A stretch of DNA of 64,000 bases. Source: Rhizobium etli CFN 42. Its GTDB lineage: Bacteria; Pseudomonadota; Alphaproteobacteria; Rhizobiales; Rhizobiaceae. Location: contig NC_007761.1 in assembly GCF_000092045.1 (NCBI RefSeq), positions 685,001 to 749,000 of the forward strand, written 5' to 3'. Made by a program: the position numbers and the translations under genes. The notes below the pieces were generated by a model, which worked only from the letters and a program-made list of their open reading frames with translations, was not told the DNA's origin and ran no database searches. Below are positions 1 to 18,682 of this stretch, piece after piece. Positions within the stretch are counted from its first letter, which is position 1. Each line of letters opens with the position of its first letter.

Positions 1-118
1 GATGGGCATGATGATGCTGCCGCCGACTTCGATCTCGCTGCCTTTCAAGATTCTCTTCTTCGTACTGATCGACGGCTGGAACCTGCTCGTCGGCAGTCTG
101 GTGCGCTCGTTCAGCTGA
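1..118 (+). CDS. fliP: FliP, flagellar type III export protein (C-terminal end only)
   Basis: The window opens inside this gene. The last 38 residues are visible: a stretch rich in Met and Pro, then [20 protein letters not shown], a hydrophobic segment, and [10 protein letters not shown] before the TGA. This is the typical end of FliP, an inner-membrane protein of the flagellar export gate with FliQ and FliR, both encoded later in the window. The family is about 245 residues long, so most of the gene lies upstream. A strong terminator follows within 25 bases, so fliP is probably the last gene of its operon. Confidence 0.85.
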
Positions 119-139
119 CCCTCTGTATTTGGAAAAAAG

Positions 140-173
140 AAAACCCCGCCGGATCCGCTCCGGCGGGGTTTTT
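140..173. terminator. Bidirectional intrinsic terminator between fliP and the OGT-like gene
   Basis: A perfect 14-pair stem (AAAACCCCGCCGGA at 140-153 with TCCGGCGGGGTTTT at 159-172) encloses a 5-base loop. T-runs follow on the plus strand and A-runs precede it, so it can serve both the plus-strand fliP and the minus-strand gene that ends at 189. Confidence 0.9.
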
Positions 174-188
174 CATGCAGTCGAGCCG

Positions 189-2105
189 TTACTCGGCCGC
201 GAAGGGAGCCGTGCGCGGCGGCAGCGCCGGAATATCCATGTGCTCGGGTGCCAGGCGCTGTCTCGCCCGTTCGGCCATGATTTCGTAGGCCTGCTCCAGG
301 TGATGGCAGAAGCGTTCGGCGTCGAACAGCGGCGCGATGTAACGCTGCTCTTTCAGATGTGCCTTATATTCGGCGATCCGGGCGGGATTCTGCGCCAGCT
401 CGACGGCGAGATCCTCGTATGCCTGCAGATCGCTTGCGACGAGTTCGGGCAGATCGATTGCCTTGAGCAGGCTTTCGCTGACGCGTGAGGCGAAGTTGGT
501 GCCCTTGACGGTGAGGACCGGCAGGCCGCCCCAGAGCTGCTCCGAGGTGGTGGTGTGGCCGTTGACCGGGAAGGTGTCGATCCCGAGGTCGGCCGCCTGC
601 TGGCGGCTGATGTGGTCTTCGTAGGGCGCGCGCGGGCAGAAGATGATGCGCTTCGGCGAGATCCCTGCCGTCTGGAAATGCTTCGACAGGTTCGCCTGGT
701 TGCGTGGCGAATTGGCCATCAGCCAGAGCACGCTGTTCGGCGCCCGTTTGAGAATCCGGCACCAGCTGTTGACCACTTCTGGGGTGATCTTGCGGTTGCC
801 GTTGAAGGAGGCGAAGATGAAGGCGTCTTCCGGCAGGCCGAGCTGCTCACGGGTGACGGGGCGCGGCTTCGGACGATGCATCGGGTCGTTGGGCTGGTAG
901 CTCTCCGGAAGCCGGCAGAATTTCTCGTGGTAGAATGGCTTGGCCACATCGGGCAGCACGGAGTGGTCGCCGATGACGTAGTCGAGGTCGATGTTGACGG
1001 TGCTGCCGGGAAAACCGAGCCATCCGACATGCACCGGTGCGAGCGGCTGGTTGAAGGCTGTCGCGCGGCTGCCTGACGTATGGCCCTTCAGATCGACCAT
1101 GATGTCGATATTGTGCTCGCGCACGACTGCCAGCACCGCCTGGTCGGAGAAGCCGTGAATGTCGACGATCCTGCCCCAGCGGCTGCGATCGGTCTCATTG
1201 TGCTTCAGGTATTCGGGGCCCGTATGGCAGAAGAGCGTGACCTCGAACCTGTCCTTGTCGTGCAGTTCGAGAATGCGCTGCAGCAGCTTCATCGTCGCGT
1301 GGCGATCCCAGAAGTCCGATGACATGTAGCCGATGCGGATCTTGTTCGACCATGTGTGCGGCTGGCTGCGGCGCAAAGCGACCCGCTCCTGATTAAGTGG
1401 GGTCGTGCCGATCGTCGCATACCGGTTGAAATCTTCGTTGCCGCACCAGTGCAGATGATAGAACGGGTTGTCTTTGCGCAGGATCTCGACATTGCCCTTT
1501 GCCAGCGCTTCGTCGATCACTGCCTGATGCTTGGCCGCCTCTTCGAAATCGTTGAATTCGCGGGCAAAAACGAGGTGAAGAAAGCGGAAGGCGTGATTGC
1601 CCGGAAAACGTTTGAAGATGTTGCGCGCAAGCGACTGGTTGGTTGCGTCGTTGAGATCGTCGCTGAGCAGCAGGGCCGCCAGGCGCATATGATCGGGATT
1701 CATGCTTTCCGACAGCACCGTCTTGAACGGACGGATGATATCCCGCTGCTGACGCTTCAGATAGATCGCGGTGATGATGAAGGCGAGTTCGGCATCTTCC
1801 TGCGCTTTGGTGAGGTTGCGCATGGCGATCAGCAGTGCTTCGTCCTCGCTGCCGGTCTCATAATAGAGCTTGGCAGCCTGCTTCTGATATTCGTAGGCGT
1901 TCGGTCCGTCGCAATTGCCGGCCAGGCCATAGGCTTTCGCGGCATCGGCCTTGAAGCCGAGCTGCACGAGGTTCTTGGCCAGCAGCGCATAGGTCTTGGC
2001 GTCCTGCTGAGTATCGATGAGCTGGTTGAGCGTCGCCAAGGACTTTGTGTAGCGGCCTGCCTGGTAATCTTTGGATGCCGCAGAGAACGAAACTTTGCTG
2101 TTCAA
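189..2105 (-). CDS. TPR / O-GlcNAc transferase-like (GT41) protein
   Basis: A 638-residue protein. Residues 1-240 are helical and resemble TPR repeats (YQAGRYTKSLATLNQLI, YALLAKNLVQLGFKADAAKAYG). From about residue 254 (IRIGYMSSDFWDRHATMKLL) it matches the catalytic domain of O-linked N-acetylglucosamine transferases (SPINDLY/OGT, GT41), with GWLGFPGST near 361 and NGHTTTSEQLWGGLPVLT near 515. Such enzymes move a sugar from a nucleotide sugar onto Ser or Thr of proteins. There is no signal peptide, so it should be cytoplasmic. It is transcribed away from the flagellin genes with a shared upstream region of about 490 bases. That position suggests, but does not prove, that flagellin is its target. 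The donor sugar and target are not visible in the sequence. Confidence 0.8.
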   Translation of the reverse strand: MNSKVSFSAASKDYQAGRYTKSLATLNQLIDTQQDAKTYALLAKNLVQLGFKADAAKAYGLAGNCDGPNAYEYQKQAAKLYYETGSEDEALLIAMRNLTKAQEDAELAFIITAIYLKRQQRDIIRPFKTVLSESMNPDHMRLAALLLSDDLNDATNQSLARNIFKRFPGNHAFRFLHLVFAREFNDFEEAAKHQAVIDEALAKGNVEILRKDNPFYHLHWCGNEDFNRYATIGTTPLNQERVALRRSQPHTWSNKIRIGYMSSDFWDRHATMKLLQRILELHDKDRFEVTLFCHTGPEYLKHNETDRSRWGRIVDIHGFSDQAVLAVVREHNIDIMVDLKGHTSGSRATAFNQPLAPVHVGWLGFPGSTVNIDLDYVIGDHSVLPDVAKPFYHEKFCRLPESYQPNDPMHRPKPRPVTREQLGLPEDAFIFASFNGNRKITPEVVNSWCRILKRAPNSVLWLMANSPRNQANLSKHFQTAGISPKRIIFCPRAPYEDHISRQQAADLGIDTFPVNGHTTTSEQLWGGLPVLTVKGTNFASRVSESLLKAIDLPELVASDLQAYEDLAVELAQNPARIAEYKAHLKEQRYIAPLFDAERFCHHLEQAYEIMAERARQRLAPEHMDIPALPPRTAPFAAE

Positions 2106-2370
2106 AACCCAACTCCGTCGAGGAAATATTCTGGCGTGGCTGCCGTTTGACGACGCACGCGGGCCGTCCTCCCCGAAAACGAGGGATCGGTCCGATGATG
2201 CTATCCCGGCATCTCACACATTGGCATTCGAAGCTTGCTTGAAACCGGTGGCGCGACATTGCGCCTGCGTCGTCCGCAAAGCACTCACCTGTTTCAGAAG
2301 GAGCCCCTTTTTCGCATGTACAAACTCGCTTTCGACGCTCGGAATTCAGATGCGAAAATTATCTTCAGCA

Positions 2371-2417
2371 GCCATTAACTAAGGCTTGTGAGGAGGCATT
2401 AACTATGCCGTGTGAGG
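2371..2417 (+). repeat. Imperfect 24-bp tandem repeat upstream of flaA
   Basis: Two copies 24 bases apart (2371-2393 and 2395-2417) agree at 19 of 23 positions. Each holds CATTAACTA and ends in TGTGAGG. The core TTAAC motif recurs as GTTAAC upstream of flaB, flaC and flaD. Placement on the same face of the helix suggests a regulator site; Rem is a candidate, but this is inference. Confidence 0.5.
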
Positions 2418-2558
2418 GCCAGAACGAGACCGGTATTTTTAAGAAGTTGGCAAGCATTGGCTGCGAGATTGCCCTGGACATGACGGGTTTGGGCCAAAAC
2501 AAGCAGGGCGCCGAGTAGCATGAAGCTGGTCCGTCATCGCCGGTACTACAGTCCGGTA

Positions 2559-2592
2559 TGTCCTCCTTTTTGTATCTAGTTTCCAGGGGACA
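2559..2592 (+). promoter_or_regulatory. flaA leader: hairpin able to hide the Shine-Dalgarno sequence
   Basis: TGTCCTC (2559-2565) can pair with GGGGACA (2586-2592) in 7 pairs including one G-U, with a 20-base loop. The right arm contains the ribosome binding site AGGGGA, 7 bases before the flaA ATG. Equivalent pairings occur in flaB and flaC, with one double compensatory change. Confidence 0.6.
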
Positions 2593-2597
2593 GATTT

Positions 2598-3503
2598 ATG
2601 ACAAGCATTAACACGAATTCTTCCGCGCAGGCCGCTCTCCAGACGCTGCGCAACGTCAACCAGGGCCTCAACAAGACGCAGAACCACGTTTCTTCGGGCT
2701 ATCGCGTTGAAAAGGCTTCCGATAACGCTGCTTATTGGTCGATCGCAACGACCATGCGTTCGGACAACAAGGCCCTGTCCGCCGTTTCCGACGCTCTCGG
2801 CGTTGGTGCCGCGAAGGTCGATACCGCTTACACCGCCATGGACAGCGCCATCGACGTCGTCGGTGAGATCAAGGCCAAGCTGGTTGCCGCAACTGAAAAC
2901 GGCGTCGACAAGGCCAAGGTTCAGGAAGAAATCGGCCAGCTGCAGCAGCAGCTCCTGAGCATCGCTCAGTCGGCTTCCTTCAACGGCGAGAACTGGGTTG
3001 CCGGCGCGAACGGCACCAAGAGCGTCGTTTCCTCCTTCGTCCGCGACGGCTCCAACGCCGTATCGATCACCACGACCGATTACGTTCTCAACAGCGGTTC
3101 CGCCGGCAACGTTCTGTTCGGCATGAGCAACGGCTCGGTCGAAACCTCCACGGGTATTCTCGGCACGTCGACGGGCGCGACCGGTTCTATCTACTCGATG
3201 AACATCACCAACTTCACCGCTGGCCAGATCCAGTCGGCTCTGACCAACGTTGAATCGGCTCTGAAGTCGATGACCAGCGCGGGTGCCGCTCTCGGCTCGC
3301 TCTCCAGCCGCATCGACAGCCAGGAAGACTTCGTGTCGGCTCTCAGCGACTCGATCGACTCCGGTATCGGCCGTCTCGTCGACGCCGACATGGAGGAAGA
3401 ATCCTCCAAACTCAGCGCTCTGCAGACCCAGCAGCAGCTGGCGATCCAGTCGCTGTCGATCGCAAACTCCTCTTCGCAGAACATCCTGTCGCTCTTCCGT
3501 TAA
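2598..3503 (+). CDS. flaA: Flagellin FlaA
   Basis: Structural subunit of the flagellar filament, 301 residues, exported without a signal peptide. Residues 1-140 form the conserved N-terminal D0/D1 helices (MTSINTNSSAQAALQTLRNV, VSSGYRVEKASDNAAYWSIA). About 140-215 is the variable surface part. The C-terminal helices end in LAIQSLSIANSSSQNILSLFR, the usual end of rhizobial flagellins. It is the first of four tandem flagellin genes; flaA, flaB and flaC are close paralogues with nearly identical ends. The short middle domain is typical of the rhizobial 'complex' filament. The start is fixed by AGGGGA 7 bases upstream and by alignment to its paralogues. It has its own terminator. Confidence 0.96.
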   Translation: MTSINTNSSAQAALQTLRNVNQGLNKTQNHVSSGYRVEKASDNAAYWSIATTMRSDNKALSAVSDALGVGAAKVDTAYTAMDSAIDVVGEIKAKLVAATENGVDKAKVQEEIGQLQQQLLSIAQSASFNGENWVAGANGTKSVVSSFVRDGSNAVSITTTDYVLNSGSAGNVLFGMSNGSVETSTGILGTSTGATGSIYSMNITNFTAGQIQSALTNVESALKSMTSAGAALGSLSSRIDSQEDFVSALSDSIDSGIGRLVDADMEEESSKLSALQTQQQLAIQSLSIANSSSQNILSLFR

Positions 3504-3527
3504 AACGGTCGGCACAAGGCTTTCAAG

Positions 3528-3564
3528 TTTCGCGGCCGGCTCATCCCCGGCCGCGAAATGTTTT
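3528..3564 (+). terminator. flaA terminator
   Basis: Stem TTTCGCGGCCGG (3528-3539) with CCGGCCGCGAAA (3547-3558), a 7-base loop, then TGTTTT. Confidence 0.8.
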
Positions 3565-3577
3565 AACATAAGGTTAA
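3563..3577 (+). promoter_or_regulatory. CtrA-like box upstream of flaB (distal)
   Basis: TTAACATAAGGTTAA fits the CtrA full-site pattern TTAA-N7-TTAA exactly. It lies 207 bases before the flaB start, just after the flaA terminator. Confidence 0.55.
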
Positions 3578-3626
3578 TGAAAATCTCTCTAACTATCAGA
3601 TATTTTTACGCAATTTCGATTTTGAA

Positions 3627-3645
3627 TTTAGCTTTCCTTAACCAT
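3627..3645 (+). promoter_or_regulatory. CtrA-like box upstream of flaB (proximal, one mismatch)
   Basis: TTTA-GCTTTCC-TTAACCAT: one mismatch in the left half, while the right half is the TTAACCAT form. It begins its TTAACC 146 bases before the flaB ATG. The matching site for flaC is 145 bases before its ATG, so the site was kept through the gene duplication. Confidence 0.55.
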
Positions 3646-3677
3646 CTTGCTGTTTTCTAGGCCCATCGAAACGGCGA

Positions 3678-3718
3678 GTTAACCCTAACGAGAATGGTTA
3701 ACAGGCATGATGCTGATC
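3678..3718 (+). promoter_or_regulatory. flaB upstream element with two GTTAAC motifs
   Basis: GTTAAC at 3678-3683 and 3697-3702, the second inside GGTTAACAGGCATGA (3696-3710) followed by TGCTGATC. The same block with two GTTAAC motifs occurs upstream of flaC (4832-4874). It is a likely core promoter or activator region; I could not assign -35 and -10 with confidence. Confidence 0.5.
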
Positions 3719-3743
3719 GCTGTGGGCCGGCCGAAATCCGGAA

Positions 3744-3775
3744 TGTCCCTTTTTAAAATCTGCCAACAAGGGGCA
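3744..3775 (+). promoter_or_regulatory. flaB leader: hairpin able to hide the Shine-Dalgarno sequence
   Basis: TGTCCCTT (3744-3751) pairs with AAGGGGCA (3768-3775): 8 pairs, one G-U, 16-base loop. AAGGGG is the ribosome binding site, 10 bases before the ATG. A competing small hairpin, TGCC (3761-3764) with GGCA (3772-3775), is also possible, so two exclusive folds can be drawn. Confidence 0.6.
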
Positions 3776-3783
3776 AACATATT

Positions 3784-4692
3784 ATGACGAGCATCAACAC
3801 CAATAATGCTGCAATGGCAGCCCTTCAGACTCTGCGCGGCATCAACCAGGGTCTCCAGACAACGCAGTCGCACGTTTCGTCCGGTTATCGCGTCGGCAAG
3901 GCCGCCGACAACGCTGCCTATTGGTCGATCGCAACGACCATGCGTTCGGACAACAAGGCACTGTCGGCTGTTTCCGACGCTCTCGGTCTCGGCGCCGCCA
4001 AGGTCGACACCGCTTACTCCGCCATGGACAGCGCCATCGACGTGGTCGGCGACATCAAGGCCAAGCTGGTTGCCGCGACCGAAAATGGCGTCGACAAGGC
4101 CAAGGTCCAGGAAGAAATCAGCCAGCTGCAGCAGCAGCTGCTCAGCATCGCGCAGTCGGCTTCCTTCTCCGGCGAAAACTGGGTTGCCGGCGCTGACGGC
4201 ACCAAGAACGTCGTCGCTTCCTTCGTCCGCGACGGCTCCAACGCCGTATCGGTCGTGATGACCGACTACGTTCTCGACGACGGCTCCGCAGGCAACGTTC
4301 TGTTCGGCATGAGCAACGGCGCGGTCGAAACCTCCACGGGTATCCTCGGTACGTCGAATGGCGCGACGGGTTCGGTCTACGCGATGGACATCACCAACTT
4401 CACCCTCGGCCAGATCCAGACCGCTCTGACCAACGTCGAATCGGCTCTGAAGTCCATGACCAGCGCCGGCGCTGCTCTCGGCTCGATCTCCAAGCGTATC
4501 GAACTTCAGGAAAACTTCGTCTCGGCTCTCAGCGACTCGATCGACTCCGGTATCGGCCGTCTCGTCGACGCCGACATGGAAGAAGAGTCCTCCAAACTCA
4601 GCGCCCTGCAGACCCAGCAGCAGCTCGCCGTCCAGTCGCTGTCGATCGCCAACTCCTCTTCGCAGACCATCCTGTCGCTCTTCCGCGGCTAA
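3784..4692 (+). CDS. flaB: Flagellin FlaB
   Basis: Filament subunit of 302 residues, closely similar to FlaA along its whole length (MTSINTNNAAMAALQTLRGI at the start, LSIANSSSQTILSLFRG at the end). Differences gather in the central part (for example NAVSVVMTDYVLDDGSAGN). No signal peptide; it is exported by the flagellar type III system whose parts FliP, FliQ, FliR and FlhA are encoded here. The start follows AAGGGGC and aligns with FlaA. It has its own upstream region with two CtrA-like boxes and its own terminators, so it is probably transcribed alone. Confidence 0.96.
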   Translation: MTSINTNNAAMAALQTLRGINQGLQTTQSHVSSGYRVGKAADNAAYWSIATTMRSDNKALSAVSDALGLGAAKVDTAYSAMDSAIDVVGDIKAKLVAATENGVDKAKVQEEISQLQQQLLSIAQSASFSGENWVAGADGTKNVVASFVRDGSNAVSVVMTDYVLDDGSAGNVLFGMSNGAVETSTGILGTSNGATGSVYAMDITNFTLGQIQTALTNVESALKSMTSAGAALGSISKRIELQENFVSALSDSIDSGIGRLVDADMEEESSKLSALQTQQQLAVQSLSIANSSSQTILSLFRG

Positions 4693-4710
4693 TAACCGCC
4701 AGAAAATATG

Positions 4711-4731
4711 GCCCGCCGGTCTCCGGCGGGC
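4711..4731 (+). terminator. Hairpin after flaB (first of two)
   Basis: Perfect 9-pair stem GCCCGCCGG (4711-4719) / CCGGCGGGC (4723-4731) with a 3-base loop. No T-run follows, so it may stabilise the 3' end rather than stop transcription. Confidence 0.55.
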
Positions 4732-4743
4732 ACCGCCTATTCG

Positions 4744-4775
4744 AGCCGCGCTTCGATGAAGCGCGGCTTTCTTAT
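4744..4775 (+). terminator. flaB terminator (second hairpin)
   Basis: Perfect 11-pair stem AGCCGCGCTTC (4744-4754) / GAAGCGCGGCT (4758-4768), 3-base loop, then TTCTTATTT. Confidence 0.8.
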
Positions 4776-4780
4776 TTCCG

Positions 4781-4799
4781 TTAACGATTGATTAACCAT
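4781..4799 (+). promoter_or_regulatory. CtrA-like box upstream of flaC (distal)
   Basis: TTAA-CGATTGA-TTAACCAT fits the full CtrA pattern exactly and has the TTAACCAT right half. It lies at the position that corresponds to the proximal flaB site. Confidence 0.6.
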
Positions 4800-4831
4800 A
4801 ATGTTGTCTTCTCAGCTCAACGAGACGGCGG

Positions 4832-4874
4832 GTTAACCGACATTAACAATCGGTTAACAGGCATGAGGCTGATC
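4832..4874 (+). promoter_or_regulatory. flaC upstream element with GTTAAC motifs and a second CtrA-like box
   Basis: GTTAAC at 4832-4837 and 4853-4858. The pattern TTAA-CAATCGG-TTAAC at 4843-4858 is a second exact CtrA-like full site. GGTTAACAGGCATGA (4852-4866) followed by GGCTGATC repeats the flaB block. flaB lacks the middle TTAA because its block is 2 bases shorter and degenerate. Confidence 0.55.
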
Positions 4875-4896
4875 CCCGTTCCCGGTAACTCCGGAA

Positions 4897-4928
4897 TGTC
4901 CCTTTTTCCCAGATGCCAACAAGGGGCA
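4897..4928 (+). promoter_or_regulatory. flaC leader: hairpin able to hide the Shine-Dalgarno sequence
   Basis: TGTCCCTT (4897-4904) pairs with AAGGGGCA (4921-4928): 8 pairs, one G-U, 16-base loop, as in flaB. The ribosome binding site AAGGGG ends 10 bases before the ATG. The alternative TGCC (4914-4917) / GGCA (4925-4928) hairpin is also kept. Confidence 0.6.
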
Positions 4929-4936
4929 ATCATTTC

Positions 4937-5848
4937 ATGACCAGCATTTTGACGAACGTCGCGGCGATGGCCGCTCTTCAGACACTCCGCGGAATCAATG
5001 ACAGCCTCGAAGGCACGCAGAACCGCGTCTCGTCGGGTTATCGCGTCGAAAAGGCGTCCGACAACGCCGCCTACTGGTCGATCGCAACGACCATGCGTTC
5101 GGACAACAAGGCGCTTTCGGCCGTATCCGACGCTCTCGGTCTCGGCGCCGCCAAGGTCGACACTGCCTACTCCGCCATGGACAGCGCCATTGACGTCATC
5201 AGCGAGATCAAGGCGAAAATCGTTGCCGCAACCGAAAAGGGCGTCGACAAGACCAAGGTCCAGGAGGAAATCGGCCAGCTGCAGCAGCAGCTTCTGAGCA
5301 TCGCGCAGTCGGCTTCCTTCTCCGGCGAAAACTGGGTCGCCGGCGCCGATGGCACCAAGAGCGTCGTGTCGACCTTCGTCCGCGACGGCAATGGCAATGT
5401 TTCGGTCAAGACCACTGACTACGTCCTGGACACGAGCTCCACTGGCAACGTGCTCTTTGGCATGACCTCGACGGGCACCATCGAGACGACCTCCGGCATT
5501 ATCGGCACGTCCTACGGCACGATCGGCTCGATCTATTCGATGGACATCAGCACCTTCGGTTCGGCCGAGATATCCATGGCACTGACGTCGATTGAGGCTG
5601 GCCTGGAGGCGATGACCAAGGCTGCCTCGCAGCTCGGTTCGATTTCCACCCGTATCGAATTGCAGGAAAACTTCGTCGGAGCGCTCAGCGATTCGATCGA
5701 CTCGGGCGTCGGCCGCCTCGTCGATGCCGACATGGAAGAGGAATCAAGCAAGCTGACGGCGTTGCAAACCCAGCAGCAGCTGGCGATTCAGTCGCTGTCG
5801 ATCGCCAACTCCAGCGCGCAGAACATCCTCACCCTGTTCCGCAGCTAA
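4937..5848 (+). CDS. flaC: Flagellin FlaC
   Basis: Third tandem flagellin, 303 residues, beginning MTSILTNVAAMAALQTLRGI. An in-frame ATG exists 24 bases upstream, but the site AAGGGG and alignment with FlaA and FlaB both support 4937. The N- and C-terminal helices match the paralogues. The centre differs more (TTDYVLDTSSTGNVLFGMTS; then DISTFGSAEISMALTSIEAG), so this copy has diverged further than FlaA and FlaB have from each other. In species with complex filaments several flagellins are assembled together, with one dominant subunit. The sequence does not show which is dominant. Confidence 0.95.
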   Translation: MTSILTNVAAMAALQTLRGINDSLEGTQNRVSSGYRVEKASDNAAYWSIATTMRSDNKALSAVSDALGLGAAKVDTAYSAMDSAIDVISEIKAKIVAATEKGVDKTKVQEEIGQLQQQLLSIAQSASFSGENWVAGADGTKSVVSTFVRDGNGNVSVKTTDYVLDTSSTGNVLFGMTSTGTIETTSGIIGTSYGTIGSIYSMDISTFGSAEISMALTSIEAGLEAMTKAASQLGSISTRIELQENFVGALSDSIDSGVGRLVDADMEEESSKLTALQTQQQLAIQSLSIANSSAQNILTLFRS

Positions 5849-5910
5849 ATCGGCCCGCTGAAGCTGGACCGAATCTTGCGCCGCCATTCGGCGGCAAGCA
5901 CAAAACCTCG

Positions 5911-5943
5911 AGAACCGCGTCCGAAACGGCGCGGTTCTTTCTA
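5911..5943 (+). terminator. flaC terminator
   Basis: Stem AGAACCGCG (5911-5919) / CGCGGTTCT (5930-5938), with CCG/CGG pairing continuing inside the loop, then TTTCTATT. Confidence 0.8.
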
Positions 5944-6061
5944 TTATATCAATAGGTTGACGAAATTATGGACATGCTGGTTGCGGCTACCGGCCGCGCT
6001 CTTGCCCAACAGCTTGGTATCGAGTTAACCTTACCTTGAGTTGATTTGCTTTTGCGACACG

Positions 6062-6083
6062 CCGGTGGAAATCCCACCGGAGG
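6062..6083 (+). promoter_or_regulatory. Stem-loop with GGAGG upstream of flaD
   Basis: CCGGTGG (6062-6068) / CCACCGG (6074-6080), 5-base loop. Its right arm runs into GGAGG (6079-6083), which sits just before an in-frame ATG at 6085. GTTAAC at 6024-6029 lies further upstream. The flagellin homology starts later, at 6151, so whether this GGAGG serves the real start is open. Confidence 0.45.
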
Positions 6084-6150
6084 CATGACGCCACGTCAGT
6101 CGCCGCCGGCAATCCGGCCTGCCCTTTCATCTTATTCCGAGACCCTGTCG

Positions 6151-7113
6151 ATGACCGTTAAGATTACCAGCGCGGCCGCGGTGAATGCACTTGCGGTGCT
6201 GCGCAGCATCAACAAAGAAGCCAGTCAGACCCAGCAGCAAGTTTCTTCGGGCTATCGGATCGAGACGGCCGCAGACGATGCCTCCTACTGGTCGGTCGCC
6301 ACCGTCATGCGCTCGGACAGCACCAATCTCGGCACGATCGGCGATGCGCTCGGTCTCGGCGCCGCCAAGGTGGATGCGACCTATACGGCAATGAATTCGG
6401 CGATCGATCTCGTCAGCCAGATCCGCGCCAAGCTGGTTGCGGCAAGAGAGCCCGGCACCGACAAGGACAAGATCAATGCCGAGATCAGCGAATATAAGGA
6501 GCAGCTGAAGAGCGTCGTCGAATCGACGTCGTTTGCAGGCGAGAACTGGTTGCTGAACAGTGACAAGACCGCGCCGCCGACTTGGTCGGTCATTTCAGGA
6601 TTCGTTCGCGCCTCGACGGGCGAATACCAGGCCCAGACCATCGACTTCCCTTCGTCGCAGACCATCCTCATCGACAAGAACAATGCGAGCGGCGGCCTTT
6701 TTACCAAGGCGATTGATGCCCAGGCGATCAACAACACCGGCACCGGACCGCGGAACTATTATCTGCTGGACGCCGGTTCGACCACGCCGGCGACGGGCAG
6801 CGAGATCGCGATCGACAAGAACACCACCGACGCCCAGCTCGTCGACATGCTCGATGTGACCGACGCCCTGTTCTCGTCGCTGACGACGACGGCTGCCTCC
6901 ATCGGTGTGATGAAGACGCGTATCGACGATCAGATCGACTACGCGGCCGATCTGTCGGATTCGATCGACAAGAGCGTCGGCGCGCTGGTCGATACCGATA
7001 TGGATGAAGCCTCGATCCGCCAGAAGGCGATCGAAACTCAGAAGCAGATGGCCGTCGAAGCGATCTCTATTCTCAACACGGCTGCAAGCAAGATCCTCAT
7101 TCTGCTGGAATAG
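6151..7113 (+). CDS. flaD: Divergent flagellin FlaD
   Basis: Fourth flagellin, 320 residues from the start chosen (MTVKITSAAAVNALAVLRSI), which aligns with the N-terminus of the other three. It is much more divergent: the D0/D1 helices are recognisable (VSSGYRIETAADDASYWSVA; then IRQKAIETQKQMAVEAISIL), but the end is LNTAASKILILLE instead of the IANSS...LFR type. The central part has an extra segment (residues about 145-225, with GTGPRNYYLLDAGSTTPATG). ATG 6085 would add 22 residues and has the better ribosome binding site (GGAGG), but it is not supported by homology. A minor filament subunit or a junction-specific flagellin is possible. Confidence 0.88.
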   Translation: MTVKITSAAAVNALAVLRSINKEASQTQQQVSSGYRIETAADDASYWSVATVMRSDSTNLGTIGDALGLGAAKVDATYTAMNSAIDLVSQIRAKLVAAREPGTDKDKINAEISEYKEQLKSVVESTSFAGENWLLNSDKTAPPTWSVISGFVRASTGEYQAQTIDFPSSQTILIDKNNASGGLFTKAIDAQAINNTGTGPRNYYLLDAGSTTPATGSEIAIDKNTTDAQLVDMLDVTDALFSSLTTTAASIGVMKTRIDDQIDYAADLSDSIDKSVGALVDTDMDEASIRQKAIETQKQMAVEAISILNTAASKILILLE

Positions 7114-7312
7114 AGCTGGGCGCGATCATTGATGGCGACGGCGCCATTCATCTTCGCGCAAGTTTGACTTCCTAGTTTCCGGCATGAAGGCATCGTCCGA
7201 AAATCGTGCCGGCGCAAGGTCAAGCCCTTGTTCGCTGCGAAGGACATGTCGCGCAGGTCATTTTGAACGGGGGCGGGCATGCCGCACGTCTTCCGGTTGC
7301 TGGATGGTTTCT

Positions 7313-7942
7313 ATGAGCATTTCGCTTTCTCGGTATTTGAAGGACTTCGGCGAACCGAAGCCGTCAGCGCCGATCATCGATATCGACGATTTGGCCGGAG
7401 ATGTTTTTCCGGAGACGCCGAGCGAACCGCCGGTCGACGTCGAGGCGGAGCGTCGCGAAGCCTATGCGCAAGGCCATGCCGCGGCGACCGCTGATTTGAC
7501 CGAGAAATATGAAGGCGAGGCGCGCGCGCTGGCCGAGGCGCATGCGCGCGCGCTCGAGGAACTGAAGATTCGCTATGAAGTGGAGGCGGCGGCGGTCATT
7601 GCATCCCGCGTCCGCGATATCGCCGAAGAAGTCGCTCAGCTGGTCAGCGCCGGCGCGGCGATCGCCATTGCGCCCGTCGTGACGGACGCGCTTGCGGCCA
7701 AGGCTGCCGAAAGTCTCGCCGCTTTGCTGCGTGAAGCGATTCTCGAAGGCGCGGCCGGACCAATCGTCGTCAGAGGGCCGACCGGCCTTTTCGACATATT
7801 GAAAGCCGAGCTGGGCGAACATGCCGCGGCGGTTCGGCACATCGAGGCCGACGATGTCGATCTTGCCGTCGAAATCGGTGAATCCGTTATCGTCACCCGT
7901 ATGTCCGCCTGGGTGGCCAGCCTGAAGAAAGTTCTCGAATGA
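7313..7942 (+). CDS. FliH-like flagellar protein
   Basis: 209 residues ([15 protein letters not shown]); an ATG three codons upstream is the alternative start. An acidic, Pro-rich start leads into a long Ala/Glu-rich helix ([31 protein letters not shown], about 45-100, written here in parts: [10 protein letters not shown] and [19 protein letters not shown]), then a compact C-terminal domain. This layout, and [10 protein letters not shown] in particular, resembles FliH/YscL, which holds the export ATPase FliI. It overlaps motB by 4 bases (ATGA) and so is coupled to it. The match is by shape and a short motif, so the assignment is tentative. Confidence 0.6.
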
Positions 7943-9249
7943 GCGACGGCGAAAACCATCACCACGGCAGAAACGAGATCATTATCGTCAAGCGGCATGG
8001 CGGCGGTGATCACGATGGTGCCCATGGTGGTGCGTGGAAAATTGCCTATGCCGACTTCATGACGGCGATGATGGCGTTCTTCCTGGTCATGTGGCTGGTG
8101 AACGCCGCCAACGAGGAAACCAAGGCCGCGGTTGCGACCTATTTCAATCCGATCAAGCTTGCCGACGAAAAGCCGACCGAGAAAGGCCTGAAGAAGCCTG
8201 TCGACCATGCCGAGGGCGAGGAGAAGAAGGAAAAGTCGAAACAGAAGGAAGATAATCCGACCGAGGGCAAGTCCGCCGCCGATGGCGACGACCAGACATC
8301 GACCTCAGGCGACCAGACCAATTATTCCGAGGCCGATTTTTTCGAGAATCCTTATTCGGTTCTCGCCGAGATCGCCCAGGAGGTCGGCCAGCAGGCCAAT
8401 GTCAGCGCCAAGGGCGATGGCGGCGCCGCCGATTCCGGCCCTGCCACCGGCGCCGATGGCGGGCAAGCCTATCGCGATCCTTTCGATCCGGATTTCTGGA
8501 CGAAGCAGGTCGAGGTGACAACGGCCGGAAAACCCTTGCCCGGCAAGAGCGAGGGGCAGGCGGCCGAGAGCGAGACGACGGAGATCGCCAAGGCCGAGGA
8601 TATGAAGCCGGTGCCTTTGGCCACCGATCAGAAGCCCGCCAAGGAAGTCAAGGAAACGATGGGCGTCGCCGAGGCCAAGGACGGCAAGGTGACGGATGGC
8701 AAGGCGCCTGAGGAGAAGACGGCGGAAGCTCGGAAGGACGCCGAGCATCAGAAGGAAGCCGACAGGGACGCGGCAGGGGCCGAGCAGCAGAAGAAGGAAG
8801 CTGAACAGCTTCAGGCGCAGATCGCGCAACAGATCGGCGGTGTTGCCGGCAAGCTCGCCGAAGGCCTGACAGTGACGGCAGCCGAAGGCGGCCTGCTGGT
8901 CAGCATCTCCGACCAGAACGACGATTCGATGTTCAATATCGGTTCGGCTGTTCCGCGCCAGGAGATGGTGCTCGCCATGGAAAAGATCGGGACGATCCTG
9001 AAGGAGAGGGGTGGCGCAGTCGCCATCCGCGGCCACACGGACGGGCGCCAATACAAGGGTGGGCAGAACGAGAACTGGCGGCTTTCGATGGATCGCGCCC
9101 AGAGCGCCTATTACATGCTCGTGCGCGGCGGGTTGAACGAGACGCGCGTCTCCCAGGTCTCCGGTTTCGCCGACCGTCGGCTGAAGCTCCCCGCCGACCC
9201 GTTCAATGCGGCCAACCGCCGGATCGAGATCCTGGTGCAGGCGGAATAG
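7939..9249 (+). CDS. motB: MotB, flagellar stator protein
   Basis: 436 residues. One membrane segment at about 40-56 follows [18 protein letters not shown]; Asp39 is the proton-binding residue of MotB. A long charged linker rich in Lys, Glu and Ala (about 70-300) leads to an OmpA-type peptidoglycan-binding domain (about 310-436, with [20 protein letters not shown] and [11 protein letters not shown]). MotA is not in the window. The linker is far longer than in enterobacterial MotB (about 300 residues in all), as is usual in rhizobia, where MotC is the extra periplasmic partner; motC follows after 10 bases. In this family MotB joins MotA to form the proton-driven stator. Confidence 0.95.
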
Positions 9250-9259
9250 GGATAGTCGG

Positions 9260-10555
9260 ATGGCGCGTCGGCAGCATCGCTACGTCGGATTTATGGCCCT
9301 CGGCCTGGCGATGCTTTCGCCTGCCGCAGGCAAAGCGCAGGATCCCGACGATCTTGCGCCGTACAAGATGCTGCGGTCGCTGCAGTTCGTGCAGGATTCC
9401 GTCGTCGCTGGCGATCATTCGGCCGGCGAAATGCAGCGCTTCATGCTGGGCACCATCGATGAGCGGCTGCGAACGGCCGATACAAAGATCTTCGATGACG
9501 ACCGCAATGTCGATGCGGCGCTGATCTACACGATGAGCGGCGGCAATCCCCAGACGCTCGAATATCTAATCGCCCATGACGTCAACGGCTATTTCGACAA
9601 CCGCGTCACCGATGTGCTGCGCAAATATCTGACCGGCAAGGGGCTGCTCGTCGCTAAGACGCTGGAGGAAACCGCCAGGGAATATCGCGACAAGAAGATC
9701 GGTCCATACCTGGCGCTGATCGGCGGCAACGTGATGATCGCCACGAAACCGACAGATGCGCTCGACCTCTACGACCAGGCACGTCTTGCCGCGCCGGGCA
9801 CGATCGTCGAGGAGGCGGCCTTGCGCCGTTCCCTCGCCATCTGCGTCGACAAGGGAATGCTCGACAAGGGGCTCGCCTATTCCCAGCGTTATGCCAGACG
9901 CTTCCTGCATTCGCCCTATGCCAGCCAGTTCGCCGATCTCTTCGTCAAGCTCGTCGTCGCCCATGATCACGACGTGAAACCGCAGGATGTCGTCGATATC
10001 CTCTCCTTCATGGATGCCCCGCGCCAGCGCGAGGTCTATCTGCGCATCGCCCGCGCTGCCGCGATAGCGGGCAAGCCCGAGCTGGCGCGCATGGCGGTCG
10101 AACATGTGCAGTTGCTTGGCGCGGGCACCGACAATGCCTTCGGCCCGCTCGCGGATTTTTATGGCGGCATGGCCGGCCTTCCCACGGACGATATCGACCA
10201 GGCGGCGAAGAATGTCAGTGGCATTGACGGCGAAGCGCTTTCGCCGCGAGATCAGGCGCTGCAGGCGGCGGCGCGGTCCGTTGCCGAACAGATTCTGCGT
10301 GCGCCGGACCCGGCAAGCTTGACGCAAGCATCCAATCCTAACACTTCTCATCAAGAAATCACTTCTGAAAAGGCTGCGGCGATAGCCACGCAACCGGGGA
10401 CGCCAGGTGCGCCTCCCGAGCCTGTTCCGGGAGGTGTGGCATCGACTGGCCAGAGCCAGGATACCGACTCCTCATTCAACGCATTTGTGACGACCAGCCG
10501 ATCCAAGCTCGACGAGATCGATGGTCTTCTGGCGCAGGAAGGCAACGAACAATGA
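9260..10555 (+). CDS. motC: MotC, periplasmic motility protein
   Basis: 431 residues with a signal peptide (MARRQHRYVGFMALGLAMLS, likely cut near residue 26 after GKA). The mature part is helical and rich in Ala and Asp, with no enzymatic motif, and ends in a Pro/Gln/Ser-rich tail (GTPGAPPEPVPGG). In S. meliloti MotC is periplasmic and works with MotB in rotary speed control. Position between motB and motD supports the name. It overlaps motD by 4 bases. I chose the ATG at 9260 because it begins the signal peptide. Confidence 0.9.
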   Translation: MARRQHRYVGFMALGLAMLSPAAGKAQDPDDLAPYKMLRSLQFVQDSVVAGDHSAGEMQRFMLGTIDERLRTADTKIFDDDRNVDAALIYTMSGGNPQTLEYLIAHDVNGYFDNRVTDVLRKYLTGKGLLVAKTLEETAREYRDKKIGPYLALIGGNVMIATKPTDALDLYDQARLAAPGTIVEEAALRRSLAICVDKGMLDKGLAYSQRYARRFLHSPYASQFADLFVKLVVAHDHDVKPQDVVDILSFMDAPRQREVYLRIARAAAIAGKPELARMAVEHVQLLGAGTDNAFGPLADFYGGMAGLPTDDIDQAAKNVSGIDGEALSPRDQALQAAARSVAEQILRAPDPASLTQASNPNTSHQEITSEKAAAIATQPGTPGAPPEPVPGGVASTGQSQDTDSSFNAFVTTSRSKLDEIDGLLAQEGNEQ

Positions 10556-11982
10556 TGGATTTGAGCGTCTCGGGCGGAGCCTCCGGTGCGGAGGCGGCTG
10601 CGGCCGCGAAATCCGCGAAGGCTGGAAAGGGTGACGCCGCCGGTCAGAATGGCGACTTCTCCAATGTGCTTGCCAAGGCGAGCGGCAGCGCCGCCAACGA
10701 CGCGCCCGACGATGCACAGCCGGATCAGGGCGTGGTTGCCGATGGCGACGCGGCGAAGGTGGCGCGGACGATCCGCAACCGCGCCAAACCGTTGATCGAT
10801 CTCAGTGACGCCGCCCTTAAGGCGCAGGCTGAGGTGCAGCCGGAAACGATCGCCATTGGCGAAAAGACTGCCGCAAAGCCCGCAACGGATCAGCGCAAAT
10901 TGCCGGACGATCTCGGCAAGCTCGATGCCAAGGATTCGTCCGCCGACGAGGCCGGGCAGGTGGCCAAGGGCGTCAAGCACGTCAACAGCGACCTCTCGAA
11001 AACAGATGCGGATGCGGACAGCGAGGAGGATGACGGCGGCATTTCCGATGTACTCGGCCTGCTGAAGCAGGAGCCCCCCGGCGCGACGGTCGTCTTGCCG
11101 GCCACAGCCGCGGCGCATCTCGCCGCCGCCACGCCCGGGGAGCCTGTCGACAAGAAGACCGCGGCTGACGCCAAAACGAGCGGCCACGCAACCGATGCCC
11201 TGGCGGCCGTCAGCGGCAATGTCGAAGACGTTAAGGTGGATGAGATCGGGGTTCCAGGTGCGGAGAACGCCGACGCCGCTGACGGCAGAACCTTCCGGCT
11301 CAGCCGCGCCGACGGGCGCGGCGTATCGATGGACGTTCACCTCGGCGCGGACCAGGCCGGGCCGAAGGACGCCTCGAAGAAGACCGACGTCGAAAACGTC
11401 TCGGTCCTCGAATCGCGCCGCTATATCGGCCTGGCACAGAATACAAATTCGGCAGCGGTCACCGCCGCTCTCTCCGGCGATTCCGAATGGGCGCGCGCCA
11501 TGCAGCCGAGTTCGGCGCTCTCCAACGCGGCGGAGTGGACGAGTACCGGCAAGGTGGTCAATACGCTGAAGATCCAGATGAACCCGATCGATCTCGGCCT
11601 GGTGACGGCGACCATGCGCCTGACCGGAGACGCCCTGAACGTCGACCTCAAAGTCGAAACGGGCGCAGCCTACCGGCAGCTGAAGGAAGATCACGGCAAG
11701 ATTCTCGAAGCTTTGCGCAGCCAGGGCTATGCGGTCGACAATGTCACCATCAGCATGGCTCCTGTCGAGCGCGCTGACGCCGGCAACCAGACCGGCAGCC
11801 AGGGCCAGGGCTCCCAGCAGCAGTCGCTCCCTCAGCAAGGGCAGGGCGGCGAGGCGCGCGAGCGCCACAATCAGATGGCGCAGCGGACGGATGGAGGCTT
11901 CAATGGCGCAGGCGAGACCGGTATCGAAGACGTCTCTGCTGGCGGTGTTCGCAGCAGCGGTGCTGGGGGCGTTTACCTCTGA
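10552..11982 (+). CDS. motD: MotD / FliK, hook-length control protein
   Basis: 476 residues. The first 320 are low-complexity and rich in Ala, Asp, Lys (the ruler-like part). About 325-400 holds the FliK C-terminal fold (VVNTLKIQMNPIDLGLVTAT, LNVDLKVETGAAYRQLKEDH, ALRSQGYAVDNVTISMAP), followed by a Gln/Gly-rich tail (QGQGSQQQSLPQQGQGG). MotD of rhizobia was named as a motility protein and later recognised as FliK, which sets hook length and switches export from hook to filament. The last 80 bases overlap the next gene in another frame. Confidence 0.9.
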   Translation: MMDLSVSGGASGAEAAAAAKSAKAGKGDAAGQNGDFSNVLAKASGSAANDAPDDAQPDQGVVADGDAAKVARTIRNRAKPLIDLSDAALKAQAEVQPETIAIGEKTAAKPATDQRKLPDDLGKLDAKDSSADEAGQVAKGVKHVNSDLSKTDADADSEEDDGGISDVLGLLKQEPPGATVVLPATAAAHLAAATPGEPVDKKTAADAKTSGHATDALAAVSGNVEDVKVDEIGVPGAENADAADGRTFRLSRADGRGVSMDVHLGADQAGPKDASKKTDVENVSVLESRRYIGLAQNTNSAAVTAALSGDSEWARAMQPSSALSNAAEWTSTGKVVNTLKIQMNPIDLGLVTATMRLTGDALNVDLKVETGAAYRQLKEDHGKILEALRSQGYAVDNVTISMAPVERADAGNQTGSQGQGSQQQSLPQQGQGGEARERHNQMAQRTDGGFNGAGETGIEDVSAGGVRSSGAGGVYL

Positions 11983-12499
11983 GGCGGCGGCTTCCACCGG
12001 GGCCTGCGAACGCGAAATCCAGTCGGCTGCGGCCAAATACGGTATCCCCGAAGGCATCCTCTATTCGGTCGGCCTGACGGAGACCGGCCGCAAGGGTTCA
12101 CTCTATCCCTATGCCATGAACGTCGAAGGCAAGGCTATTTTTCCGCCCTCGGAAGAGGATGCGATGAGGCAGTTCGATGTCGCCCGCAGAGGCGGGGCGA
12201 AGCTCATCGACATCGGATGCATGCAGATCAATCACTATTATCACGGCGAGAATTTCGCCACCGCCGAAGATATGTTCGATCCGCATCGCAACGTCGAGTA
12301 TGCGGCGAAGTTTCTCCGCAACCTGCATGACCGTCACGAGACCTGGACGATGGCGGTAGCGAGATACCATGCAGGACCGAATAACAACCCGGCGCAGAAG
12401 CAATATGTCTGCCGCGTCATCGCCAATTTGGTGGCCACCGGCTACGGCAAGTGGACTCCCAATGCGAGTAACTTTTGTCAAAATCGATTCAACTACTGA
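11903..12499 (+). CDS. Lytic transglycosylase, probably flagellum-associated
   Basis: 198 residues. Signal peptide (TSLLAVFAAAVLGAFTSEAA), then an SLT/lysozyme-like domain: AAKYGIPEGILYSVGLTETG holds the expected catalytic Glu in TETG, followed by IDIGCMQINHYYHG, matching the GxMQIN motif, and AVARYHAGPNN. It would cut the glycan strands of peptidoglycan in the periplasm. It starts 80 bases inside motD with GGAGG 5 bases upstream, so it is translationally tied to the operon. The FlgJ-like protein at 22463 has no muramidase domain, so this enzyme may open the wall for the rod, as SltF does in Rhodobacter. Confidence 0.85.
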   Translation: MAQARPVSKTSLLAVFAAAVLGAFTSEAAASTGACEREIQSAAAKYGIPEGILYSVGLTETGRKGSLYPYAMNVEGKAIFPPSEEDAMRQFDVARRGGAKLIDIGCMQINHYYHGENFATAEDMFDPHRNVEYAAKFLRNLHDRHETWTMAVARYHAGPNNNPAQKQYVCRVIANLVATGYGKWTPNASNFCQNRFNY

Positions 12500-12575
12500 T
12501 GGAAGAGCGACATTGTGACGAAACTGTGTCGTAATGTGGCAGGAATCCGGCGCCAAATCGGTGTGCAAGTCACAT

Positions 12576-12591
12576 TTAACCGCTCGTTAAC
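12576..12591 (+). promoter_or_regulatory. CtrA-like box upstream of rem (distal)
   Basis: TTAA-CCGCTCG-TTAAC fits the CtrA consensus exactly. It lies 177 bases before the rem ATG. Confidence 0.6.
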
Positions 12592-12661
12592 TTTTCCACG
12601 AAACTTTTGTGTGGATATCCAATTCAGGCTACTATATGTAGATCAAATCGCCGGGCGAGTC

Positions 12662-12676
12662 TTAATCAATTATTAA
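12662..12676 (+). promoter_or_regulatory. CtrA-like box upstream of rem (proximal)
   Basis: TTAATCAATTATTAA fits TTAA-N7-TTAA, 92 bases before the rem ATG. The surrounding 12590-12700 is AT-rich, so chance is somewhat more likely here than for the distal site. Confidence 0.5.
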
Positions 12677-12767
12677 TTTCCGCCATTCACTTTAACGAGT
12701 TGTCGCCGATTCGCGCGATTCGTACCCATAGATCATCGAAGTGCCACACTGATTCGGAGGCGGACGA

Positions 12768-13439
12768 ATGATCGTAGTGGTTGATGAGCGTGAGCTCGTG
12801 AAAGACGGATACACATCCCTGTTTGGCCGGGAGGGCATTCCCTCCACCGGCTTTGATCCATCGGAATTCGGCGAGTGGGTGCAGACCGCCGCCGATTCGG
12901 ATATAGCGGCGGTCGAGGCCTTCCTGATCGGTCAGGGCCAGCGCAGCTTCGAACTGCCCCGGGCGATCCGGGACCGCTCGATGGCGCCGGTGATCGCGGT
13001 CAGCGATCAGCCTTCGCTCGAAAACACGCTTGCGCTTTTCGATTGCGGCGTCGACGACGTGGTGCGCAAGCCGGTCCATCCACGCGAAATCCTTGCAAGG
13101 GCGGCTGCGATCCGGCGCCGGCTGAAGGCGATCGCCAACTACACCGATGTCGGTGGCATCCGCGTCTTCTCGGATGGTCGCGACCCCGAGATCAACGGCG
13201 AGGTCTTTGCGCTCCCCCGGCGCGAGCGCCGCATCCTCGAATATTTGATCGCCAACCGCGGTCGCCGGGTCACCAAGACCCAGATCTTCAACGCCATCTA
13301 CGGCATCTTCGATGAGGAGGTCGAGGAGAACGTCGTCGAGAGCCACATCTCGAAGCTGCGCAAGAAGCTGCGCAAGAAGCTCGGCGTCGATCCGGTCGAT
13401 TCCAAGCGCTTCCTCGGCTACTGCATCGACTGGGCCTGA
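12768..13439 (+). CDS. rem: Rem, OmpR-type activator of motility genes
   Basis: 223 residues. About 1-120 is a receiver-like domain and about 125-223 a winged-helix DNA-binding domain ([40 protein letters not shown]). The receiver looks atypical: the N-terminal acidic pair is VVDERE, the place expected for the phosphorylated Asp reads [10 protein letters not shown], and only the late Lys (VRKPVHP) is kept. It therefore probably works without phosphorylation. In S. meliloti Rem is the activator between VisNR and the later flagellar genes. It stands before flgE in the cluster. CGGAGG lies upstream of the ATG. Two CtrA-like boxes precede it. Confidence 0.9.
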
Positions 13440-13565
13440 TTTTTCCGGCCGGGTGGCGGCGCCCGGCTGAACCTCGATATTGGCCCTGCTGCTCGCCATG
13501 ACAGACAGCTTCACGCAAGGCCCGACAAATACTCTTAAGTTTAACAGGTAAAACGAGGTTTTCAG

Positions 13566-14870: not shown

Positions 14871-14889
14871 GTAAGGTAACGGGTAAGCC

Positions 14890-16377: not shown

Positions 16378-16380
16378 GCC

Positions 16381-17433: not shown

Positions 17434-17469
17434 TGAGCAAAGGCGCGCAGTATAAAGAAGGATGCATGA

Positions 17470-17817
17470 ATGTATCAGTTCTCATATGCCGAGGTCATGC
17501 AGGACTCGGTGGCCGACGCGAAAGAGCGGGAATGGCAGGTTCTCGACCGGTCCATAGAACTGCTGTCGTTGGCGCGCGACAAGGAAAAATACGGTCGGGA
17601 AGCCATTGAAGCTCTGTTTTATACGCGCCGGGTATGGATCAGCTTTATCGAGGATCTGAAACATCCAGATAACCAGCTGGATGTCCAGCTCAGGGCCAAC
17701 CTCATCTCGATTGCGATCTGGATATTGAAGGAATGCGACAGGATCAGAAAACGTCTGTCTAATAACTACCAGGGCATCATCGACGTTACCACCATCATCA
17801 GGGATGGACTTAAATGA
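17470..17817 (+). CDS. flaF: FlaF, flagellin synthesis regulator
   Basis: 115 residues ([20 protein letters not shown]), matching FlaF, a protein specific to alphaproteobacteria. In Caulobacter FlaF is needed for flagellin translation and acts opposite to FlbT, which is encoded next with a 4-base overlap (ATGA). All helical, cytoplasmic, no signal peptide. Both genes lie behind the hook and junction genes, which fits a check that links hook completion to flagellin production. Confidence 0.92.
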
Positions 17818-18263
17818 AAAGCACACTTCGCATTTCTCTGAAAGCCGGAGAAAGAATCTTCATCAACGGCGCCGTCCTGCGTGTCGACCGCAAGGTCGCG
17901 CTGGAATTCCTGAATGATGTGACGTTCCTTCTCGAGAACCACGTCCTCCAGCCGGAAGGCGCAACGACGCCCCTGCGCCAGCTCTATTTCATCGCGCAGA
18001 TGATCCTCATCAATCCCGAGGGCAAGGACCACTCGACGGCGATGTTCCGCAAGTCGATCACCATGCTGCTCACCTGCTTCAAGAACGAAGAGATCCTCGC
18101 GGAACTAAAGCGGATCGACGCGCTTGTGTCGACCGGCCGCGCCTTCGACGCATTGAAGGCCATCCGCGGTCTCTACGCGATCGAAGACAACATCCTCAAC
18201 AATCAGGAACTGCCGCCGACGATGGTCGAGCAGATTCGCAGGGAGATCGCACCATGGCGGTAG
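17814..18263 (+). CDS. flbT: FlbT, post-transcriptional flagellin regulator
   Basis: 149 residues ([20 protein letters not shown], then [20 protein letters not shown]). In Caulobacter FlbT binds the 5' leader of the flagellin mRNA fljK and lowers its stability until the hook is complete; in some relatives it acts positively. In this window the leaders of flaA, flaB and flaC share a pairing that can hide the ribosome binding site, which makes them obvious candidate targets. Overlaps flaF by 4 bases and flgD by 10. Confidence 0.93.
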
Positions 18264-18682
18264 ACGCAACGTCAAGCGTGACGAGCTCGACCTCGACGAG
18301 CTCGTCGAGCTCGGCCCAGAGCAAGGCGACGCTTAACTACGATAATTTCCTTCAGCTGCTCATCGCGCAGATGAAGAACCAGGATCCGACCGATCCGATG
18401 GATGCAAGCGAGCAGGTCGCTCAGCTGGCCACTTTCTCGCAGGTCGAGCAGACGATTCAGACCAACACCAAGCTGGATACGCTTCTGGCAAGTTCGAGCC
18501 TGACCCAGGCGAGCAGCTATGTCGGCAAATATATGGAAAGCGCCGACGGCACCGTCAAAGGCGTCATCGATTCCGTCAAGGTTTATTCCGACGGCATCAT
18601 TGCGACGACCACGGATGGCGATAAGATACTCGTGCAGGCGGGAATCACTGTTGCCGACGAGGCGCCGAGCAGCAGCTCCTGA
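18254..18682 (+). CDS. flgD: FlgD, hook-capping protein (short form)
   Basis: 142 residues. A Ser/Thr-rich start, then the hook-cap domain ([40 protein letters not shown]). E. coli FlgD has about 230 residues with added Ig-like domains, which are absent here. I see no frameshift; the short form seems normal for rhizobia. It directs assembly of FlgE at the hook tip. Starts inside the end of flbT. Confidence 0.9.

Follow-up and report, generated by a model that had tools for sequence, protein, structure and literature searches.

A candidate leader for post-transcriptional control of flagellin synthesis

In Caulobacter, FlbT is reported to repress flagellin translation through the 5' untranslated region (UTR) of the mRNA (PMC3930126, PMC7591256), together with the flagellin FljJ (PMC7591256). 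Control by FlbT, FljJ and FlaF is attributed to Anderson and Gober (2000) and Ardissone (2020), as cited in PMC4347634, PMC7591256 and PMC3930126, and an analogous Caulobacter structure may be described in the former. The sign reported for FlbT in Rhizobiales is positive, unlike that in Caulobacter: flbT and flaF were hits of an A. fabrum motility screen (PMC9812332), FlbT has been proposed as an activator in Brucella by a mechanism called not clear (review PMC4347634), and LafA of Bradyrhizobium is described as translationally induced by FlbT (review PMC8429497). The first of these two reviews calls the action of FlbT on flagellin mRNA unresolved. Here, we analyze a 64-kb stretch of the 6.5-Mb genome of Rhizobium etli CFN 42 (contig NC_007761.1, positions 685,001 to 749,000; hereafter the window), in which the flagellin genes flaA, flaB, flaC and flaD share a cluster with flaF and flbT. 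The first three are predicted to carry a structured and conserved 5' leader spanning the ribosome-binding site. It consists of a GCATGAnGC box, a CCGG-loop-CCGG hairpin (H1) whose spacing from the box is nearly constant and, downstream, a TGTCCC/GGGRCA helix (H2) whose 3' arm contains the Shine-Dalgarno (SD) sequence. With a probability of roughly 0.62, we regard it as a conserved class III leader in which H2 gates translation of the major flagellins, with FlbT, together with FlaF, as the likeliest opener.

The locus resembles the Caulobacter system in having flagellin 5' UTRs as the site of translational control, reported there and proposed here, and in the presence of flbT and flaF, whereas the defined two-helix leader, found here in nine families of the order, sets it apart from the Caulobacter system as described. 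Translational control of flagellin that is tied to flagellin homeostasis is also reported for CsrA/FliW (PMC4894983, PMC6529632). Unlike in that system, occlusion in the rhizobial leader would arise from pairing in cis. RNA thermometers sequester the SD by pairing with an upstream arm. H2 shows the same arrangement, but the flagellin leader has no heat-shock context and combines conserved arms with an additional hairpin, H1.

The closest described RNA within the order is the flg-Rhizobiales RNA (RF01736), likewise a structured cis element, reported upstream of a flagellar gene (PMC2864571). It differs from the flagellin leader in comprising 141 positions and three stem-loops (PMC3765529). Identity of the two was considered and rejected, since they are different elements and no covariance-model match to RF01736 occurs in the flagellin loci scanned or in the window's genome, for which the controls gave no signal either. 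Similarly, no Rfam family matched the leader in window positions 1-20000 (E <=1) or in 13 loci at gathering scores. Among 150 genomes of the order, RF01736 itself was detected in 18 at E <=0.001, with 3 above the cut-off; these weak matches suggest that the family may be wider than curated. Its matches in loci L175-L193 run into an flgF-like start reading MENALLIGLSRQM. No published description of the flagellin leader was found among the papers listed from the open-licence literature, as judged by titles and the beginnings of abstracts.

A predicted two-helix leader in front of flaA, flaB and flaC

All elements lie on the forward strand. Upstream of flaA, the box, a probable class III promoter element found with the box profile, occupies positions 2518..2526 and is followed by H1 at 2539..2557 (GCCGG 2539-2543, CCGGT 2553-2557), which is located by sequence, fold and a match of the covariance model R1 described below. 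The H2 arms, identified from sequence and fold, are TGTCCTC (2559..2565) and GGGGACA including the SD (2586..2592), with a loop of 20 nt. For flaB, a box search places the box at 3705..3713 and an R1 match (3724-3786) covers H1 at 3727..3741 (CCGG 3727-3730 and 3738-3741); sequence and fold give the H2 arms TGTCCCTT (3744..3751) and AAGGGGCA with the SD (3768..3775). The same search and criteria locate the flaC box at 4861..4869, H1 at 4882..4894 (CCGG 4882-4885 and 4891-4894; sequence, fold and R1 match) and the same two arms at 4897..4904 and 4921..4928. H2 of both flaB and flaC has a loop of 16 nt, contains a U-G wobble and is predicted at -8.3 kcal/mol. The SD arm ends 8 nt before the start codons of flaB (3784) and flaC (4937) and 5 nt before that of flaA (2598).

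These three SD pairings had been proposed in a sequence-only reading of this DNA, and all of them are present at the positions it gave; H1, the box and the H2-free leader of flaD had been overlooked. Its register for flaA is not quite that of the best predicted fold (-7.4 kcal/mol), in which one U is bulged and a CCU/AGG pairing extends TGTCC/GGACA; the C-G pair that it compared with flaB and flaC therefore lies in a contiguous, wobble-containing register. Folding pairs the SD arm in flaA, flaB and flaC but predicts no comparable helix for flaD, whose box (6083-6091) and H1 (6105-6109/6114-6118) span 6083..6118 according to sequence, box search and fold.

Conservation of the leader

Leaders for comparison were drawn from 78 named flagellin loci, taken from the best 80 matches listed, and from further genomes at the levels of genus, family and order; they are samples from regions hand-picked among the matches listed. 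A first pass yielded 508 matches, of which 14 were dropped (494 leaders, 394 distinct), and a second pass 772, of which 12 were dropped (760 leaders, 585 distinct). The later addition of 25 leaders brought the set to 610, including 513 with H1. Element profiles were seeded with strings from earlier outputs and each fitted separately. Over the 394 leaders, TCCGGaATGTCCCT is found in 86%, AAGGG[GA]CA in 63% and the box in 93%. In the set of 585, the box is present in 518, H1 in 497 and both together in 475.

A pattern that makes no assumption about the arms, namely the box separated by 42-72 free bases from a flagellin start, occurs in 236 of 394 genomes of the family and in 74 of 109 genera, some of the matches listed plainly not being flagellins; reversed-pattern controls gave 0 among the matches listed. 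Across the order, the pattern is seen in 39 of 297 genomes, evident non-flagellin matches included. The box and H1 together with TGTCC/GGGACA-like arms are present in nine families (f1, f2, f28, f30, f35, f45, f18, f23 and f42), the last three counted from printed sequence letters. Box and H1 are both missing from the single or paired leaders listed for f3, f13, f27, f41, f43 and f44.

For the covariance model R1, 42 leaders from other genera and families were used, none of them from the genus of the window. Applied to the 64 kb, it recovers flaA (43.0 bits), flaB (42.8) and flaC (41.4), followed only by matches of 12.7 and 11.0 bits, and it finds no flaD leader there. Across 47 other loci, R1 gives a single strong match, at 41.4 bits in L005, whose coordinates are those of flaC again. 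Three loci of the chemotaxis (che) type score 13-15 bits, and three of the four matches there fall on the other strand of the palindromic stem. Conservation of an SD-hiding pairing in flagellin leaders is supported.

Covariation of H1 and of H2

The closing pair of H1 is paired in 27 of 43 representatives compared with 16.3 expected, a value reached in none of 5000 shuffles (0/5000). In 36 tree-disjoint comparisons with both bases changed, the native combination pairs better in 27 and the swapped combination in 1, with 8 ties (p=1e-7). H1 therefore carries compensatory changes at its closing pair, as is expected of a covariation-supported RNA structure; a second flanking pair does not covary (20/43 vs 22.8 expected). 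Covariation at the closing pair and loops varying from 3 to 15 nt argue, short of proof, for a stem formed in RNA and against an invariant DNA dyad.

For H2, conservation is stronger than covariation. In 368 leaders the arms were located separately, the 3' arm through its own profile, which inflates its conservation. Here, the pairs T1-A8 (351), G2-C7 (368), T3-A/G6 (356), C4-G5 (358), C5-G4 (345) and C6-G3 (344) form a core present in 344-368 leaders (93-100%), flanked by T7-A2 (276) and T8-A1 (199). Outside the flaD-like group, 351 of 460 leaders with H1 have a GG near the start covered by a helix of six or more pairs, compared with 66.5 on average when the 5' window is shuffled, and the H2 loop mostly measures 7-24 nt.

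Since the arms hardly vary, they offer little material for covariation, and most of the tests on H2 are weak or negative. Covariation between the arms is not supported in the form that the sequence-only reading had given it, the results on compensatory changes in H2 being mixed. RNAalifold, run on 52 leaders (60 offered, 11 of them dropped and the three window leaders added; selected for both arms, with an incomplete flaB row), recovers exactly H1 and H2, and its covariation term amounts to only -0.37. The covariation score from pair counts on the same alignment is 0.124 vs 0.102, a value that 1 in 500 shuffles attained; 87.9% of the cells are paired compared with 29-53% after sliding, both results being favored by the selected rows. 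Swapping arms among 103 representatives gives p=0.0001; the other sets give p=0.22 (n=30) and p=0.16 (n=24), the 49 leader clusters p=0.18 and the 16 clusters with both arms p=0.61. Tree-disjoint duplex energies favor native over swapped arms by 51:44 (sign test p=0.27, Wilcoxon p=0.04; three control windows p=0.22, 0.26 and 0.51), and per-position changes do so by 19 to 10 (p=0.07).

The double compensatory change highlighted by the sequence-only reading (T-A in flaB and flaC, C-G in flaA) is present and is most likely one old event. All seven tree comparisons that contain it contrast flaA-type with flaB/C-type leaders, five of them within one locus, and it was therefore rejected as repeated covariation. 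A double change with pairing retained also occurs in another genus (TGTCCT/AGGACA in L436).

The arms nevertheless tend to occur together. Where the SD arm is present, the 5' arm reads TGTCCC or TGTCCT in 333 of 368 leaders; where it is absent (31 clusters with 123 leaders, anchored or not, a few clusters dominating), TGTCCC heads only 17 of 103 TG-anchored leaders and positions 3-6 are relaxed. Among the 49 clusters, which are not fully independent, 16 have both arms, 7 the 5' arm only, 8 the 3' arm only and 18 neither (Fisher p=0.007).

Leaders without H2

The box and H1 (ACCGG..CCGGT) also precede a chemoreceptor-domain gene region in the window's genome (G000:C2:658151; L324/L506, position 1501), which we take to be the icpA/che operon. 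There, H1 is followed by TCCA (TCCATC) instead of TGTCC(C), with the same letters in seven printed relatives. Three more chemoreceptor loci (L355, L356 and L357) have the box before a start. As the chemoreceptor leader with box and H1 lacks TGTCC, H2 looks specific to flagellins.

A quite improbable account confines the leader to transcription: the box, the CCGG dyad and TGTCCC would belong, at the DNA level, to a class III promoter, and complementarity to the SD would be incidental. It would explain why box and dyad are common to flagellin and chemoreceptor/che leaders and why a spacing of 19-21 nt separates the ATG of the box from the first CCGG in 67 of 75 representatives; in addition, CtrA is reported to bind flaA and to regulate flaA/B/C directly in S. 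meliloti (PMC4433202), and one flaD-like type (the L095 cluster, 9 leaders) keeps TGTCCC without an SD partner. However, the variable loops of H1 and H2 fit RNA helices better, TGTCC erodes where the SD arm is absent, and the SD core is followed by C in 367 of 368 profile-selected leaders (one T), which is not a feature of SD sequences.

The flaD-like leaders, defined by the start types MTVK (21), MSNV (13), MTYK (10), MTYR (6) and MAYT (4), retain the box in 54/54 and H1 in 53/54 cases and lack H2 throughout (0/54). Shuffling these 54 leaders yields H2 at a rate of only 0.8. At loci with at least four distinct flagellin leaders, the order of H2 is plus-plus-plus-minus in 33 of 39; 29 of these 33 are named contigs, mostly from Rhizobium, and come close to one observation repeated. 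The exceptions lack H2 throughout (L425) or have it throughout (L454, L415).

Such leaders suggest selective gating more than general protection. A passive leader, in which H1 and H2 protect the mRNA or fix the translation rate, or in which H2 melts with temperature, would operate with no dedicated protein. H1 would indeed lie near the 5' end, and melting is conceivable for an H2 of -7 to -8 kcal/mol that contains a U-G wobble in flaB and flaC; given that the flaD-like leaders keep box and H1 and dispense with H2, we consider this reading unlikely.

The leaders of L422, L424 and L425 keep the box and H1 and mostly carry TATGTGA, TATGTAA or TATGTGT in place of TATGTCC; they possibly represent another leader type. 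L243 was examined as a case of lost H2 and rejected as such, since four of its five leaders keep the TGTCCC/GGGAC arms, without the CCGG-CCGG hairpin.

Additional features of the leaders and their genomic setting

The two-state switch proposed in the sequence-only reading can be drawn for flaB/flaC-type leaders only. The competing TGCC/GGCA hairpin is predicted by folding in flaB (3761..3775) and flaC (4914..4928), both on the forward strand and at -3.7 kcal/mol. A GCC/GGC counterpart occurs in 8 of 31 representatives with GGGGC-type loops compared with 1.6 (sd 1.2) in shuffles and is not enriched in GGGAC-type loops (1/39 vs 1.9). Among six motifs tried in GGGAC-type loops, AGTA is found in 12 of 39 representatives against 3.0 shuffled, which is weak given the number of motifs; from the same six, GTAT-n-GT is seen in apical loops, such as those of L028, L152 and L452, in 7 of 39 against 1.0. 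The ATG inside GCATGA opens a reading frame that ends on the flagellin start in flaB and flaC. An upstream open reading frame (ORF) was rejected: across 100 representatives, the distance to the flagellin start falls into the three frames 40, 32 and 28 times, so that no frame is kept, and a control frame reaches the start at a similar frequency (10 vs 13).

The flagellin genes lie on the forward strand at 2598..3503 (flaA; Pfam PF00669/PF00700), 3784..4692 (flaB; Pfam domain search), 4937..5848 (flaC; start set by homology) and 6151..7113 (flaD, a divergent flagellin by Pfam domains, its leader predicted by folding to lack H2). The letters A to D follow rhizobial naming, the domains themselves being those of Pfam. 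The proposed clustering with flaF and flbT holds: Pfam locates flaF (PF07309) at 17470..17817 and flbT (PF07378), a candidate leader-binding regulator, at 17814..18263, both on the forward strand. The window also contains flgE-, flgK- and flgL-like genes and flgD by their Pfam domains, and further Flagellin_N matches lie elsewhere in the genome. The mechanical ORF list begins flaC at an in-frame ATG (4913) inside the H2 loop, eight codons before the homologous start. A TTAA-N7-TTAA motif at 4843-4857, presumably a CtrA-type site, ends 3 bp before the flaC box.

Weighing the gating model

Gating by H2 is favored by what comparison of the leaders shows: the shared box, the covariation of H1, complementary and conserved H2 arms, their tendency to co-occur and the flaD-like leaders devoid of H2. 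Besides covariation of H2 that most tests find weak or missing, several findings weigh against it. An equal naive hairpin score is reached at 20 of the 75 starts of ORFs of at least 200 aa in the window (27%). As a single hairpin this good is common, the argument must rest on conservation, and it is conservation, not single hairpin strength, that exceeds chance for the H1 and H2 leader. The arms are not strictly coupled, as the 7 clusters with only the 5' and the 8 with only the 3' arm demonstrate, and one genus (L422, L424, L425) lacks H2 in the flagellin leaders seen. The occurrence of box and H1 before a chemoreceptor/che gene means that these two are not flagellin-specific. No transcription start for flaA-flaD was found in the literature consulted, so that H1 or the 5' arm could be untranscribed DNA. 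Finally, FlaF is reported to repress FliC in Brucella (review PMC8781033), a poor fit to FlaF as co-opener.

In the gating model, the GCATGAnGC element probably directs transcription, and the mRNA would start between box and H1, just before the latter. H1 would form first as a short 5' hairpin; TGTCCC, emerging directly after it, would then capture the SD element GGGRCA and cover the ribosome-binding site, keeping translation low by default until some factor opens H2 once the hook-basal body is ready. FlbT, with FlaF, appears the likeliest trans-acting opener, and it is plausible that both act through the flagellin leader. The reported need for FlbT for flagellin or motility in Rhizobiales suits a leader that is closed by default.

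A Caulobacter-like leader would instead be open by default, with FlbT and a flagellin co-repressor stabilizing H2 or blocking translation until the base is built. Such an arrangement would match the repression reported for Caulobacter and the presence of flbT and flaF in the cluster. We find it doubtful in view of the rhizobial reports of FlbT as an activator or motility-screen hit (PMC9812332, PMC4347634, PMC8429497) and of an H2 predicted to be stable unaided. Repression by Caulobacter FlbT together with FljJ (PMC7591256) also weighs against a simple shared role of the protein. The missing H2 by itself suggests FlaD as a possible counterpart of the regulatory flagellin FljJ. More speculatively, gating may extend to an order-wide checkpoint in which FlbT/FlaF open the H2-locked major flagellins at export and flaD-like flagellins escape as early export sentinels in the manner of FljJ.

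The reported sign of FlbT differs between Caulobacter and Rhizobiales, and genes with H2 (flaA/B/C) and without it (flaD) coexist naturally in one cluster, which makes the FlbT question testable by point mutants. The box-plus-hairpin module, common to the chemoreceptor/che leader, is separable from a flagellin-specific module that would act in translation. The leader composed of H1 and H2, kept by many relatives within the order, is a good candidate for a switch that holds back the filament protein until completion of the flagellar base.

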